Assembly (NCBI GenBank): GCA_014695255.1
Contig: JACJNX010000060.1
Coordinates: 62,001-126,000 of the forward strand
DNA: 64,000 nucleotides
Direction of reading: 5' to 3'
From: Cyanobacteria bacterium FACHB-63
GTDB lineage: Bacteria > Cyanobacteriota > Cyanobacteriia > Leptolyngbyales > Leptolyngbyaceae
Part shown: positions 56,838-63,855 of the stretch, in pieces
Layout of the letters: every line of letters begins with the position of its first letter
Position numbering within the stretch: position 1 is the first letter of the stretch
Notes under the pieces: generated by a model
The model's input: only the letters and a program-made list of their open reading frames with translations
What the model was told of the DNA's origin: nothing
The model's database searches: none
Made by a program: the position numbers and the translations under genes

Positions 56838-58886
56838 CTACTTACCGGGTTGTTGAATCACCATCTCAGCTACACGCCGCTTTGCTTTCGGATCAATGCC
56901 GATTAAGCGCACATATAGACCGGAATAGTTCGCGATCACTGCTTCAACCTCTAGGATTGCCTCAGCATCGCGGGTCGTCTGAATCGAAGTTGCAGTCTGC
57001 CAAGAACTGGTTTTATAGCGTCGCTGATCCGCGAACTCAACCCCAATCTTGTAGCCTTGGCGCACAAGCTGACGAATCTGCTCCACAGTGTCCGGACTTA
57101 GACGGCCGTTACTATTGCTAGAAGGTGTGTAAAGCGGAGGCTGAGATTTGTAGCTCGAAGGCTCGTTATACATCGACGGCTCAGAAACGGCTGAACTGCT
57201 GTAACCACTACTGGTACCGTTAGAAGCATGAGCTTTTCCGGGACGATGAATCACACTTTCTGCAATTCGCTTTTTCTGTTTTGGATCAACGCCAACCAAC
57301 CGGATGTAGTGATCGCGATGCTCGTTAATAAACGAATTGAGAGCCGCAATCGCTTGAGATGCAGAACTCGCTTGAATCGGTGGGGCACTGTTCCAAGAGC
57401 CATACTTAAATCGACGTTCATCGGCAAATTCCAACCCTACCACTGCGCCTTGCGCTAATAGTTGTTGAATCTGCTCTGCTGCACCGCCCGCAAGCGCTCC
57501 ATCAACTGTGTGATGAACAGCAGGTTGACGATGAGAGGCAACGTGCGAGGTCGGTTGAGCGACAGACTTTCCATCTGGACGCTGAATAATTGCTTCCAGC
57601 ATCCGGCGCTTGTTCTGAGTGTCAATCCCGATCAAGCGAACATATTCACCGCTATGTTCTGCTAAGCATCGCTGTAGCTCCGTCATCACCGCAGACTCAT
57701 TTGTCGTCTGAATCGGGGCGCAACTTTTCCAAGAGCTAGTCTGGAATTGGCGCTTATCTGCGTGTTCGGTTCCAATCCGACCGCCTTTCGATAGAATCTG
57801 CCGAATCTGAGCCACCACAGCCGGATCAAGTCCGCCGCTACTGTGACCATTTCCATTCGATGCAGAACTATAGCTCGGAGCAGAACTGTAGCTCGAACTT
57901 GCCGAACTGTAAGACGGAGCCGAATAGCTCGATCCGCCTGAGAAACTTGCAGGCTTATCACCCGGACGCTGAATAATTGCTTCCAGCACCCGCTTTTTAT
58001 TCTTCGTATCAATCCCAATCAAGCGAACATACTCACCGCTGTGTTCCGCAAGACAGGATTGTAATTCTGCCAACACAGCCGACTCGTTCGTCGCTTGAAT
58101 GGGTGCACAACTCTTCCAAGAACTGGTCTGAAACTGCCGCTTATCCGCGTGTTCCATGCCGATTCGGTAGCCTTGCGCTAATAATTGCCGAACGTGGTTA
58201 ACAACTTCGCCGTTCATAATTGACCCATTTTCTGTAGCGCTACTGCCAGCTTTAACATCTGTCGTGGACTTCGCGGCACTCCGACTTGGGACCACCGCAT
58301 GAGAACTAATCGTCTGAGAACTTGCCTTCGATGCAGTGCCGACAATATAGGAAGCAAAAGCACGATCGCGCTCACTCACTTCCGGTAATCGATCGGCTTG
58401 CTGCTGAGTCGTAATCACTGCACCCGACGGCACATACTTCCCAGGCGGCACTTCCACATCTTGAACCAGTGTGTGCATCATGACAATGCACCCGTTTCCG
58501 ATTCGGGCGTTAAACACCGTCGATCGAAAACCAATAAAACAATCGTCACCCACATAAGCAGGTCCGTGAATGATCGCCATGTGGGTGATCGCGGTATTGT
58601 TTCCAATCCAGACCGAATAGGAATCGCCATCATCCCCAACGACCCGCCCTTGCTCCAAGCCGTGAATCATCACCCCGTCTTGAACCGTCGATCGCGATCC
58701 AATAAAAAACGGACTGCCTTCATCCGCCCGAATTGAGGTTCCCGGTGCAATCATCACGTTTGCTCCGATCCGCACATCGCCAATCAAATTAGAAAACGAA
58801 TGTACAGAAGCCGATTGATCGATCTTCGGCTCGGTCAGATTCCGCGACCACGGTGTAGGCGGAGCCGCATCACTACGGACTGCCAT
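56838..58886 (-). CDS. ccmM: Carboxysome scaffold CcmM with four SSUL modules
   Basis: CcmM condenses RuBisCO in the beta-carboxysome. Residues about 1-200 form a gamma-carbonic-anhydrase trimer domain (hexapeptide helix; zinc His in MIHGLEQG and [12 protein letters not shown]). Four RbcS-like SSUL modules follow at about 225-308, 354-438, 464-549 and 596-682, joined by Ser/Tyr-rich linkers. SSUL1 and SSUL2 each hold a Cys pair (Cys260/Cys278; Cys389/Cys407) while SSUL3 and SSUL4 have none. An internal ATG at 58217, just before SSUL1, could give the short M35-type form. ATG at 58886 follows AGGAG. 682 aa. Confidence 0.97.
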
Positions 58887-58967
58887 AACATTTCTCCTAA
58901 CAAAACCGCACAAGCAAGCTAACTGTGCAGGGAGAAGGATGGAAGGTTCGACTCTAACGATCGAACC

Positions 58968-59267
58968 CTAGTATTGAGTTCCTTTGTTGTACAGCGGACG
59001 ATTATCCACGCTCACCGTATCAATAATGGCAATCACAGCAGCATCAACCGGGCGATTCTCACTGCCGGGAACCTGCCTCGCTGCACTGCCGCGACTCACT
59101 AATACCCATTCATCAACCCCTGCGCCCACGTTGTCAGCAGCCACCTCATACAGCGGAAGTGGCTGCCCTTCTTCATCCAGAACCTGCACCAAAAGGAATT
59201 TCACCCCCATGAGACTTGGTTCCTTTTGCGTACTGACAACGGTTCCCCGAACTTTTGCAATCTGCAT
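58968..59267 (-). CDS. ccmL: Carboxysome vertex protein CcmL
   Basis: A 99-aa pentameric shell-vertex protein of the EutN/CcmL family that closes the icosahedral carboxysome corners. Family features are MQIAKVRGTVVSTQKEPSL, GVKFLLVQVLDEEG, VAADNVGAGVDEWVLVSRGS and DAAVIAIIDTV. ATG at 59267, 6 bases after ccmK1. ccmM begins 81 bases on. Confidence 0.97.
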   Translation of the reverse strand: MQIAKVRGTVVSTQKEPSLMGVKFLLVQVLDEEGQPLPLYEVAADNVGAGVDEWVLVSRGSAARQVPGSENRPVDAAVIAIIDTVSVDNRPLYNKGTQY

Positions 59268-59273
59268 CGGGGA

Positions 59274-59615
59274 TTATGGACGGTTCAGCGGACGAATTCC
59301 GCTCACGCTTTCACGGAACGGTTCAACTGCCTCGGTGTAACGAATCGGCAGCACGTACTCCAGGTTTTCGTGCGGACGCGCAATAATGTGAGTAGACAGC
59401 ACTTGTCCACCGTTGACGCGCTTCACATTCTCAATTCCAGCCGCGACCGAAGCTTGCACTTCTGAAACGTCGCCCCGCACGATCACAGTCACGCGACCGC
59501 TACCGATTTTCTCGTAACCGACCAAGGTCACACGAGCCGCTTTGACCATTGCGTCTGCGGCTTCCACAACTGCGGGAAACCCTAACGTCTCGATCATGCC
59601 AACTGCAATAGCCAT
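59274..59615 (-). CDS. ccmK1: Carboxysome shell hexamer CcmK1
   Basis: A 113-aa BMC-domain shell protein forming the hexameric tiles of the carboxysome facets, with the conserved pore/loop region [20 protein letters not shown] and the edge Lys-Ala-Ala-Arg. It is nearly identical to the preceding CcmK but has a longer C-terminal tail ([14 protein letters not shown]), the feature that distinguishes CcmK1 from CcmK2. ATG at 59615; the in-frame start at 59633 would add six non-family residues. Confidence 0.95.
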
Positions 59616-59675
59616 TGTAATTCTCCCTTCCAATCAAAAAACGATGTCAATTCAAACTCAAACGATCGCGCACAT

Positions 59676-59984
59676 TTAACTTCGGAATTGTTCCACCGCT
59701 TCGGTATATCGAATCGGTAAGACATATTCTAGGTTCTCATGCGGACGCGCAATAATGTGACTTGATGCAGTTTCGCCTCCGTTCACGCGCTTGACTGATT
59801 CCAGTCCTGCCGCTATGGAAGCTTGCACCTCGGACACATCGCCCCGAACGATAACAGTCACGCGACCGCTACCAATCTTTTCATAGCCAACCAGGGTGAC
59901 ACGAGCGGCTTTCACCATTGCGTCTGCGGCTTCCACCACAGCCGGAAATCCCCGCGTTTCAATCATTCCCACAGCGATCGGCAT
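59676..59984 (-). CDS. ccmK2: Carboxysome shell hexamer CcmK2
   Basis: A 102-aa BMC-domain shell protein, first gene of the carboxysome operon. It shares [18 protein letters not shown] and [20 protein letters not shown] with CcmK1 but ends shortly after [10 protein letters not shown], as CcmK2 does. ATG at 59984 follows GGAGAGACGA; the in-frame start at 60041 adds 19 codons that are not family-like. The two ccmK genes are evidently a tandem duplication, 60 bases apart. Confidence 0.95.
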
Positions 59985-60478
59985 TTCGTCTCTCCATAGA
60001 TTCCATAGATGAAGTGGAACTAATTCAACATCGTAAACCAAAAGAGCGACGGGGATCGCCCATTATTCTTACTGTTGTCGAGTTTTCCACTGTTGCTACT
60101 CCTTCAGAATAGAGTTGCGTCTGTCACTTGACAATATAAAGCTCTATGATACTTGCAAATTCATGACATAAGTCAAGCTAATGACTCTGATTGAAGTCGC
60201 TGGAACACCTAAGTCAACTTCTAACCATAGATCGATTTCAATCCAAAAACCGAATTGTTAATAAATCATTAAAAGTCTATATAAATCCAAGCTAATCTCA
60301 ATGATTGGATTTGTCTATCGATTGCATTTTACTTTTAAAGGGTTGAAGCGCTAAGCTGAATCCTAAGACTTTAGAGCGATTATTTCCGGATTCAAAGCCG
60401 GAAAATTATGTGAGGCTCCCCCAGATTCGATCGAATTTGGTTCGGGGAGCATTTTTAGCAAATTTCTGGGCGAAGAGT
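59985..60478. promoter_or_regulatory. Shared divergent control region of carboxysome and CO2-uptake operons
   Basis: 494 bases separate the ccmK2 and ndhF3 starts. Both operons are CO2-responsive in cyanobacteria through LysR-type regulators (CcmR/NdhR, CmpR). Candidate sites are the inverted repeat TTAATAAATCATTAA (60258-60272, containing a T-N11-A core) and TGACATAAGTCA near 60163-60174. Two hairpins occur at the ndhF3 end (60383-60404 and 60415-60450). No coding frame is seen. Confidence 0.6.
60415..60455 (+). terminator. Terminator-shaped hairpin in the ndhF3 leader
   Basis: GCTCCCC (60415-60421) pairs with GGGGAGC (60444-60450). Inside, CCAGATTCGA folds back on TCGAATTTGG. The stem is followed at once by ATTTTTAG. 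It ends 24 bases before the ndhF3 ATG, so if transcription starts upstream it could cause premature termination. A second hairpin, TTTCCGG/CCGGAAA, precedes it at 60383-60404. Confidence 0.6.
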
Positions 60479-62314
60479 ATGCAGCAGTCCCTGATCGAAA
60501 CAAGCTGGTGGATTCCTTGCTACGGACTTCTAGGTGCATTTGTGACGCTGCCTTGGTCTGTGGGATTGATTCGGAAGACAGGTCCTCGTCCTGCGGCTTA
60601 TCTTAATGTTTTAACAACCGTGCTGGCGTTTGTGCATGGAATCGTACTGTTTAGTGCGGTCTGGGGACAGGAACCGCAGCATTTCGCCTTTCACTGGCTG
60701 CAGGCAGCAGACTTAGATTTAACGTTTTCGCTGGAGCTTTCTCCAATTAGTGTCGGTGCAATGGAATTGGTGACGGGCTTGAGTTTGTTTGCTCAGGTGT
60801 TTGCGCTGGGGTACATGGAGAAAGACTGGGCGCTGGCGCGATTTTTTGGATTGATGGGATTTTTTGAAGGGGCAATGAGCGGATTGGCAGTGAGTGATTC
60901 GCTCTTTCTGACTTATGCACTTCTCGAAATGTTGACGCTCTCAACTTATTTGCTCGTGGGATTTTGGTATGCTCAGCCGCTTGTTGTGACTGCGGCGCGA
61001 GATGCGTTTCTGACTAAGCGGGTTGGGGATGTGTTGCTGCTGATGGGTGTTGTGGCACTGTCCGCGCTTTCTGGAAGTTTAGATTTTCCGGGGCTTTATG
61101 ATTGGGCAGAAACGGCGGAACTGTCGCCTGTGGTGTCGGCATTACTGGGACTAGCGTTGATTGCAGGTCCAGTTGGGAAGTGTGCCCAGTTTCCGCTCCA
61201 TCTCTGGCTGGATGAAGCAATGGAAGGTCCGAACCCTGCATCGATTTTACGGAACTCAGTGGTCGTCGGATGTGGTGCTTATGTGTTGATTCGGCTTCAG
61301 CCGATCGTGACGTTATCGCCTGTCGGCTCCATTGCACTGATGGCTTTAGGAACGATGACTGCGATCGGAGCTTCTCTGGTTTCTCTCGCTCAAATTGACA
61401 TGAAGCGGGCGCTGTCTCATTCCACCAGTGCCTATCTCGGATTAGTCTTCATTGCCGTCGGCATTGGCTGGACGGATTTCGCCTTTATTCTGTTGTTTGC
61501 TCATGCGATCGCAAAAGCGCTTCTGTTTATGAGTACCGGATCAATCATCATGACCACAAGTTCTCAAGACATCACCGAAATGGGCGGCTTGTGGTCAAAG
61601 ATGCCAGCGACAACCACTGCGTTTCTAACAGGTTCAGCCGGATTAGTCGGGCTGTTTCCGCTGGGCGGGTTTTGGGCATTGCAGCGCGGAATTGATGATT
61701 TTTGGTACGACAAGCCCTGGCTAGTCGTGGTTGTGCTGACGGTGAATGCGCTGACCGCTTTAAACCTGACGAGAGTTTATCGATTAGTGTTCATGGGTAA
61801 GGTGCAGCCAAAAACTCGACGCGCTCCAGAGGTTCCCTGGCTGATGGCTGTGCCAATGGTGTCACTCAGTGTTTTAACCTTGATGGTTCCGTTCGTGCTT
61901 AACACTCTGAACCTATTGCCTCATTGGGAGGTTATGAATTGGTCAGCAGCAGGACTGTTGATCCTGTCTGGAATCGCGGGTACAGCGTTGGGATTTGCAA
62001 TCACGTTGAATTATGCCTGGATTCGTCCTGTCCAAGCTCCGCTCCGATTTTTCCAAGATTTGCTGGCGTATGACTTTTACGTGGATCGTTTATATCGCGT
62101 CAGTGTGGTTCTGATTGTGAACGCGATCGCTCAATTTAGCGCCTGGTGCGATCGTTACATCGTTGATGGAGTGGTCAATTTCGTCGGATTAGCTTCACTC
62201 TTTAGCGGTGAGACTTTGAAATATAGCGCTTCGGGACGATCGCAAGCTTATATGTTGACCATTTCGCTTGTGGTTGGCTTGTTAGGCGCATTTCTAACTT
62301 GGTCGATGTGGTAA
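60479..62314 (+). CDS. ndhF3: NDH-1MS subunit NdhF3 (inducible CO2 uptake)
   Basis: A 611-aa multi-helix membrane subunit, the antiporter-like NdhF of the thylakoid NDH-1 complex that drives CO2 hydration. The N-terminus MQQSLIETSWWIPCYGLLGA is the NdhF3-type opening. Conserved parts follow: ALLEMLTLSTYLLVGFWYAQ, GKCAQFPLHLWLDEAMEGPNP, LAQIDMKRALSHSTSAYLG and LFAHAIAKALLFM (ion-channel Lys/His). The ATG at 60479 is chosen by family alignment, though the frame is open to 60410. ndhD3 follows after 20 bases. Confidence 0.94.
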   Translation: MQQSLIETSWWIPCYGLLGAFVTLPWSVGLIRKTGPRPAAYLNVLTTVLAFVHGIVLFSAVWGQEPQHFAFHWLQAADLDLTFSLELSPISVGAMELVTGLSLFAQVFALGYMEKDWALARFFGLMGFFEGAMSGLAVSDSLFLTYALLEMLTLSTYLLVGFWYAQPLVVTAARDAFLTKRVGDVLLLMGVVALSALSGSLDFPGLYDWAETAELSPVVSALLGLALIAGPVGKCAQFPLHLWLDEAMEGPNPASILRNSVVVGCGAYVLIRLQPIVTLSPVGSIALMALGTMTAIGASLVSLAQIDMKRALSHSTSAYLGLVFIAVGIGWTDFAFILLFAHAIAKALLFMSTGSIIMTTSSQDITEMGGLWSKMPATTTAFLTGSAGLVGLFPLGGFWALQRGIDDFWYDKPWLVVVVLTVNALTALNLTRVYRLVFMGKVQPKTRRAPEVPWLMAVPMVSLSVLTLMVPFVLNTLNLLPHWEVMNWSAAGLLILSGIAGTALGFAITLNYAWIRPVQAPLRFFQDLLAYDFYVDRLYRVSVVLIVNAIAQFSAWCDRYIVDGVVNFVGLASLFSGETLKYSASGRSQAYMLTISLVVGLLGAFLTWSMW

Positions 62315-62334: not shown

Positions 62335-63855
62335 ATGTTGAGTGCGTTGATTTGGATACCGATTTTGGGTGCGATCGTGGTTGGACTGTTGCCGGGTTCG
62401 ATCTCCGATCAATCTGTGAGAAGGACAGCGATTGCAACCGTTAGCATTGCCTTGGCTGTGTCGCTTTGGATTGCGACTCAGTTTGATGTGATTAATATCG
62501 GACTTCAGTTTCAAGAAGATTTGCCCTGGCTAGAACCGCTGGGACTGACTTACCGATTAGGGTTAGACGGTTTATCGCTGCCGCTGATTGTTCTGAATTG
62601 CTTTTTAACCCTGATTGCGCTGTTTTCCACGCCTCCAGCCGTTCAACGTCCTCGGCTTTATTACTCGCTGATTCTAGTGATTAATGCTGCCGTTGCTGGA
62701 GCATTTCTCGCTCATAACTTATTGTTGTTCTTCTTGTTTTATGAGTTAGAACTTATTCCGCTTTATTTACTGATTGGAATTTGGGGAGGAGCAAAGCGGG
62801 GGTATGCTTCGACAAAGTTTCTGATCTACACGGCGGTTTCAGGAATATTAATTCTAATTGCATTTCTAGGTTTAACTTGGTTGAGCGGCGCGACATCCTT
62901 TGAATACAACCCAGCATTAACCGAAGCGTTGCCGTTAACATCGCAAATAGTATTGCTGGGCGCAATTCTAATCGGATTTGGCATCAAGATTCCGTTGTTT
63001 CCGCTACACACCTGGTTGCCCGATGCTCACGTTGAAGCTTCCACGCCAATCTCGGTGCTACTTGCAGGGGTATTGTTGAAGCTTGGAACCTATGGACTGT
63101 TGCGGTTTGGATTGCAATTGTTTCCGCAAGCGTGGGCGGTATTGGCTCCTTATCTAGCGATTTGGGCAGTCGTCAGTGTGTTGTTCGGGGCATTTACCGC
63201 GATCGCTCAAACCGATATGAAAAAGATGGTGGCTTACAGTTCAGTCGGGCATATGGGATTTATCCTTCTCGCAGCCGCTGCCGCAACACCGTTAAGTCTA
63301 TTGGGCTGTGTGTTTCAGATGGTGAGCCACGGTTTGATCTCTGCGCTGCTATTTGCCTTGGTCGGTGTGGTCTATACCAAAACAGGAACCCGCGACATTA
63401 CCGTTTTGAAAGGGTTGTTAACCCCGGAGCGGGGCTTGCCGATCGTCGGTAGTTTGATGATTTTGGGTGTGATGGCGAGTGCTGGAATTCCAGGAATGGT
63501 TGGGTTTATTTCGGAGTTTCTGATATTCCGGGGGAGTTTCATCGCATTTCCAGTGCAAACCCTGCTCAGTATGATTGGCACAGGGTTAACTGCGGTTTAC
63601 TTTCTGCTGTTGGTGAATCGCACCTTCTTTGGTCGGCTGCCGGATCAGTTTGCAAATCTGCCACCAGTGTATTGGTCAGAGCGAATTCCTTCTATCATGG
63701 TAGCGGTTTTGATTGTGCTGTTAGGCTTGCAACCCAGTTGGCTGGTGCATTGGACTGAGACGACAACGACTGCAATGTTGAGCGAATATCCAACGATCGC
63801 AGTTCATTCCGCCCCAACTCAATCTCATCCCGTCTCAGTCTTACCGTTGGAGTAA
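62335..63855 (+). CDS. ndhD3: NDH-1MS subunit NdhD3
   Basis: A 506-aa NdhD-type (NuoM-like) antiporter subunit with about 14 helices. Conserved features are YRLGLDGLSLPLIVLNCFLT, FFLFYELELIPLYLLIGIWGG (functional Glu), GFGIKIPLFPLHTWLPDAHVEA (Lys and His of the ion path) and AQTDMKKMVAYSSVGHMGF. Position between ndhF3 and cupA identifies it as the D3 paralogue rather than the respiratory NdhD1. ATG at 62335; cupA follows 2 bases after the stop. Confidence 0.95.
   Translation: MLSALIWIPILGAIVVGLLPGSISDQSVRRTAIATVSIALAVSLWIATQFDVINIGLQFQEDLPWLEPLGLTYRLGLDGLSLPLIVLNCFLTLIALFSTPPAVQRPRLYYSLILVINAAVAGAFLAHNLLLFFLFYELELIPLYLLIGIWGGAKRGYASTKFLIYTAVSGILILIAFLGLTWLSGATSFEYNPALTEALPLTSQIVLLGAILIGFGIKIPLFPLHTWLPDAHVEASTPISVLLAGVLLKLGTYGLLRFGLQLFPQAWAVLAPYLAIWAVVSVLFGAFTAIAQTDMKKMVAYSSVGHMGFILLAAAAATPLSLLGCVFQMVSHGLISALLFALVGVVYTKTGTRDITVLKGLLTPERGLPIVGSLMILGVMASAGIPGMVGFISEFLIFRGSFIAFPVQTLLSMIGTGLTAVYFLLLVNRTFFGRLPDQFANLPPVYWSERIPSIMVAVLIVLLGLQPSWLVHWTETTTTAMLSEYPTIAVHSAPTQSHPVSVLPLE

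Follow-up and report, generated by a model that had tools for sequence, protein, structure and literature searches.

The window, i.e., the whole stretch of DNA analyzed here (64,000 nucleotides), contains an ndhF gene preceded by a hairpin, with a divergent gene for a shell protein on the minus strand, as listed in Table 1. The window is part of contig C137 of the genome (7.23 Mb), which has two NdhF3/NdhF4-type genes, 5.3 kb apart from start to start. The gene order is window ndhF, ndhD, a gene for a 379-aa CO2 hydration protein and a small ORF, then ndhF, ndhD and a gene for a 434-aa CO2 hydration protein. All eight genomes examined in the genus carry both ndhF genes on one contig, 5.30–5.34 kb apart from start to start. 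The two copies were compared with 6TJV, which we take to be the NDH-1MS complex containing NdhF3 and CupA; the 6TJV matches carry the descriptions 'NADH dehydrogenase subunit 5' and 'Tlr0906 protein'. With chain F, the window NdhF scored 576 bits and its paralogue 5.3 kb downstream 764 bits. With chain P, the Cup protein of the window operon scored 339 bits and that of the downstream operon 727 bits. NCBIfam assigned both NdhF copies to the same families, and the two NdhD copies passed the cut-offs of different models. The window gene thus belongs to the NdhF3/F4 family, is accompanied by an ndhD and a CO2 hydration protein gene of its own, and is the less 6TJV-like of the two copies. Since both its NdhF and its Cup protein resemble 6TJV less than the downstream paralogues do, the window operon is, by these comparisons, ndhF4-ndhD4-cupB, and the true ndhF3 operon begins 5.3 kb downstream.

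Table 1. Features of the ndhF4 leader and neighboring genes (positions within the window)
Feature	Position	Strand	Basis or remark
Divergent ccmK-type shell gene	59676..60041	-	Limits are those of the ORF; the gene may start further in (scan covered 113 aa from 60017)
Conserved presumptive ndhF4 promoter block (112 nt)	60251..60362	+	74/112 positions invariant
TAAGCT, possible -10	60352-60357	+	Within the conserved block
Upstream hairpin, not conserved	60383..60404	+	Fold; gapped in 5/8 alignment rows
ATG-TGA pair just 5' of the stem	60408..60413	+	ATG plus stop here in 5/8 genomes
5' arm of putative terminator stem, GCTCCCC	60415..60421	+	7/7 pairs form in 8/8 genus genomes
Inner stem and loop, variable	60422..60443	+	5/22 positions invariant
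3' arm of putative terminator stem, GGGGAGC	60444..60450	+	Pairs with GCTCCCC
U-tract, ATTTTTA	60451..60457	+	7/7 positions invariant, 8 genomes
ndhF4 (611 aa)	60479..62314	+	ORF, protein comparison
ndhD4 (506 aa)	62335..63855	+	ORF, family search

The first-pass annotation had named the gene ndhF3 and placed the hairpin in front of an inducible CO2-uptake operon. The name does not agree with the bit scores above. The inducible setting was also not borne out, since ndhF4-ndhD4-cupB is of the kind described as constitutive in the accessible part of a 2026 review, according to which NDH-1MS' is constitutive with low affinity and NDH-1MS is induced (PMC13249358). The annotation was right that no plus-strand gene lies directly upstream of the hairpin, as the neighbor is the minus-strand ORF 59676-60041. 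This ORF matched BMC shell families, all below the curated cut-offs, and the name ccmK for it is our own reading. Other features of the surroundings were seen in passing. A CcmM-like ORF with four RbcS-like repeats, recognized by eye, lies on the minus strand at 56838-58913 of the window. Just 3' of the cupA operon, this cluster also carries a gene for a LysR-type regulator (L040:13987-15003), whose best NCBIfam relative is CbbR, below the cut-off. The ndhF3 matches of 4 of 40 genomes have one in-frame stop in the aligned range (G009:C97, G015:C366, G040:C32 and G013:C40), which could reflect alignment past the gene end or a broken gene.

In RNA form, the hairpin consists of a GCUCCCC/GGGGAGC stem with a nested inner stem, followed by AUUUUUA. 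Its folding energy over 60415-60450 is -18.5 kcal/mol, and 21 nt lie between the end of the U-tract (60457) and the ATG (60479). The long G/C stem, the nested inner stem and the T-tail before the ATG had all been described from the first inspection and were confirmed at 60415-60457. The spacing was corrected, as 24 bases had been claimed from the T-tail to the ATG, whereas the last T (60456) and the ATG (60479) are separated by 22 nt. The leader therefore has the G/C-rich stem and the immediate U-tract of an intrinsic terminator. Against a terminator, the tail has only five U and is preceded by an A.

The plain folding energy of a 71-nt stretch was ordinary (z -0.92; 41 of 200 shuffles as good), and a 111-nt stretch gave z -1.44, with 15 of 200 shuffles as good. 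A simple terminator scan did not include the hairpin in its list. When the leader was scored for a T-tailed hairpin, none of 60 dinucleotide shuffles was as good. Among the divergent leaders in 400 kb of this genome, 1 of 84 had a T-tailed hairpin that reached -15 kcal/mol (best -15.9), and 5 of 84 had one that reached -10 kcal/mol. Of 65 tandem leaders in the same 400 kb, 11 reached -10 kcal/mol and 4 reached -15 kcal/mol; both counts are based on crude ORF calls, and tandem leaders may hold the terminators of upstream genes. The possibility that the hairpin is a dispersed repeat was rejected. The segment 60300-60700 is single copy in the genome, and a loose stem pattern occurred at 9 places in 7.23 Mb and the backwards pattern at 4. 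The loops at these 9 places were unrelated by eye.

Conservation was followed in the eight genomes of the genus, namely this one and seven relatives, of which G006 is the closest. A strict rule was applied, which required a hairpin of -10 kcal/mol or below, TTTT no more than 6 nt from the stem and a stem end 25–60 nt before the start codon. All eight ndhF4 leaders passed, compared with 7 of 320 shuffled leaders and none of the eight ndhF3 leaders from the same genomes. The stem ended 28–41 nt before the ATG in every genome. In the lower stem, all 56 cells (seven pairs in eight genomes) were paired, and sliding the partner lowered this to 39–67%. One of these pairs is C-G in five genomes and U-A in the other three (G007, G003 and G005), which gives both-sided changes in three stem cells, and two other pairs have one G-U each. 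The genomes with U-A are not sisters in the ndhF4 tree, where G003 groups with G004 (C-G) and G005 with G002 (C-G), each at 100/99 support, and where the order of the deeper forks is partly open. Two of five covariation measures did not exceed the shuffles (403/500 and 500/500) and the other three were reached by 12/500; these counts are not probabilities. Invariant positions made up 10/14 of the stem and 7/7 of the tail versus 5/52 of the leader, 5/22 of the loop and 3/21 of the spacer between tail and ATG. The weakest member was G005, with -10.1 kcal/mol and 6 of 60 shuffles as good, and the inner stem is gone or almost gone in G005 and G002 (L126 and L127). In the comparison of related strains that the first-pass annotation had proposed, the pairs were kept in 8/8 genomes through mutations that preserve base pairing. 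By these counts, the stem and U-tract are maintained in the genus while their surroundings drift, and the terminator-shaped element in the ndhF4 leader is real and conserved in the lineage.

The family and the wider phylum were surveyed with the ndhF3 leaders as a control. NdhF4 (E <= 1e-240) was present in 38 of 42 family genomes and NdhF3 in 40 of 42, and leaders were scored at the 30 listed loci for each; among the ndhF3 loci, the L178 leader was 180 nt and the L170 start was extrapolated. Outside the genus, the strict rule was satisfied by 7/22 ndhF4 leaders (shuffles 12/880) versus 4/22 ndhF3 leaders (shuffles 8/880), an excess that is weak and suggestive only. The closest shapes were found in G047, G008 and G019, with other stem sequences and ends 37–46 nt before the start. 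G044 keeps the stem with no T-tract directly behind it, and G012 has just three T in a row after the stem. Under a looser rule (a T-tailed hairpin of -10 kcal/mol or below), 10 of 30 ndhF3 leaders were positive, including 2 of 8 in the genus (71 and 39 nt). Among named loci across the cyanobacteria, the best 80 of 561 places were taken and 79 were scored, as L068 had too little upstream DNA. The looser rule was satisfied by 13 of these 79. Five of the 13 (L041, L042, L043, L048 and L055) had already been included among the family loci, and the remaining eight are scattered (27–80 nt).

The motif TAAGCTGA within the conserved upstream block was present in 8/8 genomes of the genus. From the TAAGCT in this block, we infer that ndhF4 transcription starts near 60365, 7 nt past the hexamer. 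In the interval between tail and ATG, TANNNT was found in three of eight genomes (at -6, -6 and -14) and none of these is conserved. Only 21 nt are available there, and together with the lack of a conserved TANNNT this places the ndhF4 promoter most likely upstream of the hairpin. Further sequence features were seen in this intergenic region. Upstream of ndhF4, a conserved stretch rich in A/T contains a palindrome-like TTAAT-N5-ATTAA (60258-60272), which by eye has the shape of a LysR-type site. The segment 60125-60161, which lies in the interval separating the shell gene from ndhF4, has matches close to ndhF4 in other genera, at 95% over 37 nt in G009 and more weakly in G012, G008, G023 and G011; it probably represents the shell gene's promoter region. 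A search of 15.5 kb with the RbcR consensus (PMC13249358) gave one match with one mismatch, at 60168-60182. Because 1.43 such matches are expected by chance, no claim is made for this site.

The stem and U-tract, in a phylum without Rho, point to an intrinsic terminator. In the accessible part of a study on Synechococcus elongatus, cyanobacteria are described as lacking Rho, and ends with a hairpin and U-tract behave as intrinsic terminators, with just 22% of transcription units fitting intrinsic termination (PMC13289151). With moderate confidence, we regard the element as an intrinsic (Rho-independent) terminator in the ndhF4-ndhD4-cupB 5' leader that aborts part of transcription and lets the rest read through. 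RNA polymerase would start at the conserved promoter block, at the site proposed above, and transcribe a short leader. The stem would form as the U-tract is reached, and part of the complexes would terminate near 60456. Given the proposed start, the terminated leader RNA would be about 74–93 nt long, depending on the species. The remaining complexes would continue into the operon mRNA, in a proportion set by the presumed termination efficiency. The element thus probably causes partial early termination. If this termination is real, a supposedly constitutive operon has a control point at the RNA level.

A stronger form of this explanation is a regulated attenuator, in which the choice between termination and read-through is made by a signal, for example the carbon or redox state, a small RNA, a protein or a ribosome that occupies the leader. 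The position and conservation of the putative terminator are consistent with it, as is the ATG-stop pair that 5/8 genomes have just 5' of the stem. This pair is missing in G007, G002 and G005 and is possibly due to chance. The first-pass annotation had proposed an attenuator with the hairpin at 60383-60404 as its second structure. A hairpin does form there (-9.3 kcal/mol, z -2.7), but only G000 and G006 show it in a G/C-rich form, and five of the other six genomes have gaps in this region. The only structures that RNAalifold gave for the eight leaders were the putative terminator and, within the presumed promoter, a small stem; no conserved alternative structure competes for the terminator arms, and the hairpin at 60383-60404 was therefore dropped as a switch partner. 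Of the proposed attenuator, the conserved terminator shape held, and the switch partner and the inducible-operon setting did not. Rfam gave no match up to E = 1 in 59000-61500, so that neither Rfam nor RNAalifold of the eight leaders supplied the sensing or antiterminator structure of a riboswitch-type attenuator. A leader peptide was also rejected, as no leader ORF, judged by position and length, is common to the eight genomes, and hence none that is conserved and overlaps a switch. The leader has also diverged, with its 5/52 invariant positions, and the operon is of the kind described as constitutive in the available portion of the review cited above (PMC13249358). Regulated attenuation at the ndhF4 leader is unproven, and we consider it rather unlikely. 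Even less probable is a version in which ndhF4-ndhD4-cupB, reputed to be constitutive, is gated by regulated leader termination that releases the 74–93-nt RNA, and in which, in most members of the genus (5/8), the hairpin could be kept open by a ribosome located at the AUG-stop pair, coupling output to translation capacity.

The remaining explanations do not involve a terminator that acts on ndhF4 transcripts. The hairpin could end a stand-alone small RNA, or read-through or antisense transcription from the ccm side, and insulate an ndhF4 gene that starts downstream of it. The intergenic region is long and divergent, and a second conserved block lies nearer ccmK (60111-60180; 46/70 positions invariant) with one weak plus-strand promoter match, within the number expected by chance. 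However, the short interval between tail and ATG, with its lack of a conserved TANNNT hexamer, makes a promoter 3' of the hairpin unlikely, and we find this explanation improbable. We give a similarly low probability to a hairpin that stabilizes or processes the mRNA and does not terminate. The G044 stem described above would fit such a role, but the T-tract is the most conserved part of the element in the genus and would be needless for pure stability. Lastly, the hairpin could be coding DNA if NdhF had a longer N-terminus, beginning at the GTG at 60410. The frame is indeed open from this GTG in this genome, as the first-pass annotation had pointed out, and it is also open past the hairpin in two relatives, in G003 without a start codon and in G002 with a TTG. 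In the other five of seven relatives, in-frame stops occur within 12 nt of the ATG, including the closest one, G006 (stop 12 nt before the ATG), and the aligned first residue is ATG or TTG in 109/110 loci. These stops rule out the longer N-terminus for the genus, and its overall probability is close to nil.

A partially acting intrinsic terminator in the leader, the explanation we prefer, can be compared with known systems. Among the matches listed for the open-licence literature (titles and the starts of abstracts), none described attenuation for ndhF4 or ndhF3, or termination in the leaders of these genes. For dRNA-seq in Leptolyngbya, the matches consisted of a single paper, which is a review. 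The ndhF4 leader is similar to the S. elongatus intrinsic terminators in its hairpin and U-tract and in belonging to a phylum without Rho, but those terminators, in the portion of the study available, end transcription units, whereas the ndhF4 hairpin precedes the first gene (PMC13289151). As in premature-terminator attenuators generally, a putative intrinsic terminator lies in the 5' leader; in contrast to them, no sensing part or antiterminator was found in the ndhF4 leader (PMC2965389). None of four cyanobacterial terms looked for occurs in the text of that paper on premature-terminator attenuators.

The closest parallel is the cmpA leader of Synechocystis 6803 and 6714. The Synechocystis cmpA 5' UTR accumulates as a short transcript, for which premature termination was given as the cause, and it is counted among the actuatons (PMC5386190). 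Compared with the features of actuatons, the ndhF4 leader has the terminator shape, and the position of its promoter is deduced from conservation only. As for a separate downstream start, which actuatons lack, no conserved TANNNT lies between tail and ATG, and the start was placed from the sequence. Both leaders precede a carbon-uptake gene, and in both the stretch from the promoter (presumed in ndhF4) to the ATG contains potential terminator hairpins (-39 to -114 in cmpA). The cmpA downstream gene is expressed by read-through (PMC5386190), as we propose for ndhF4. In contrast, the short cmpA transcript was seen on Northern blots (PMC5386190), and the ndhF4 leader is known from sequence alone. 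The operon (ndhF4-ndhD4-cupB) and the lineage also differ, and the likeness described here is one of anatomy. If our explanation is true, ndhF4 would be the second carbon-uptake leader of this kind after cmpA, hinting that leader termination is habitual in cyanobacterial carbon-uptake operons.
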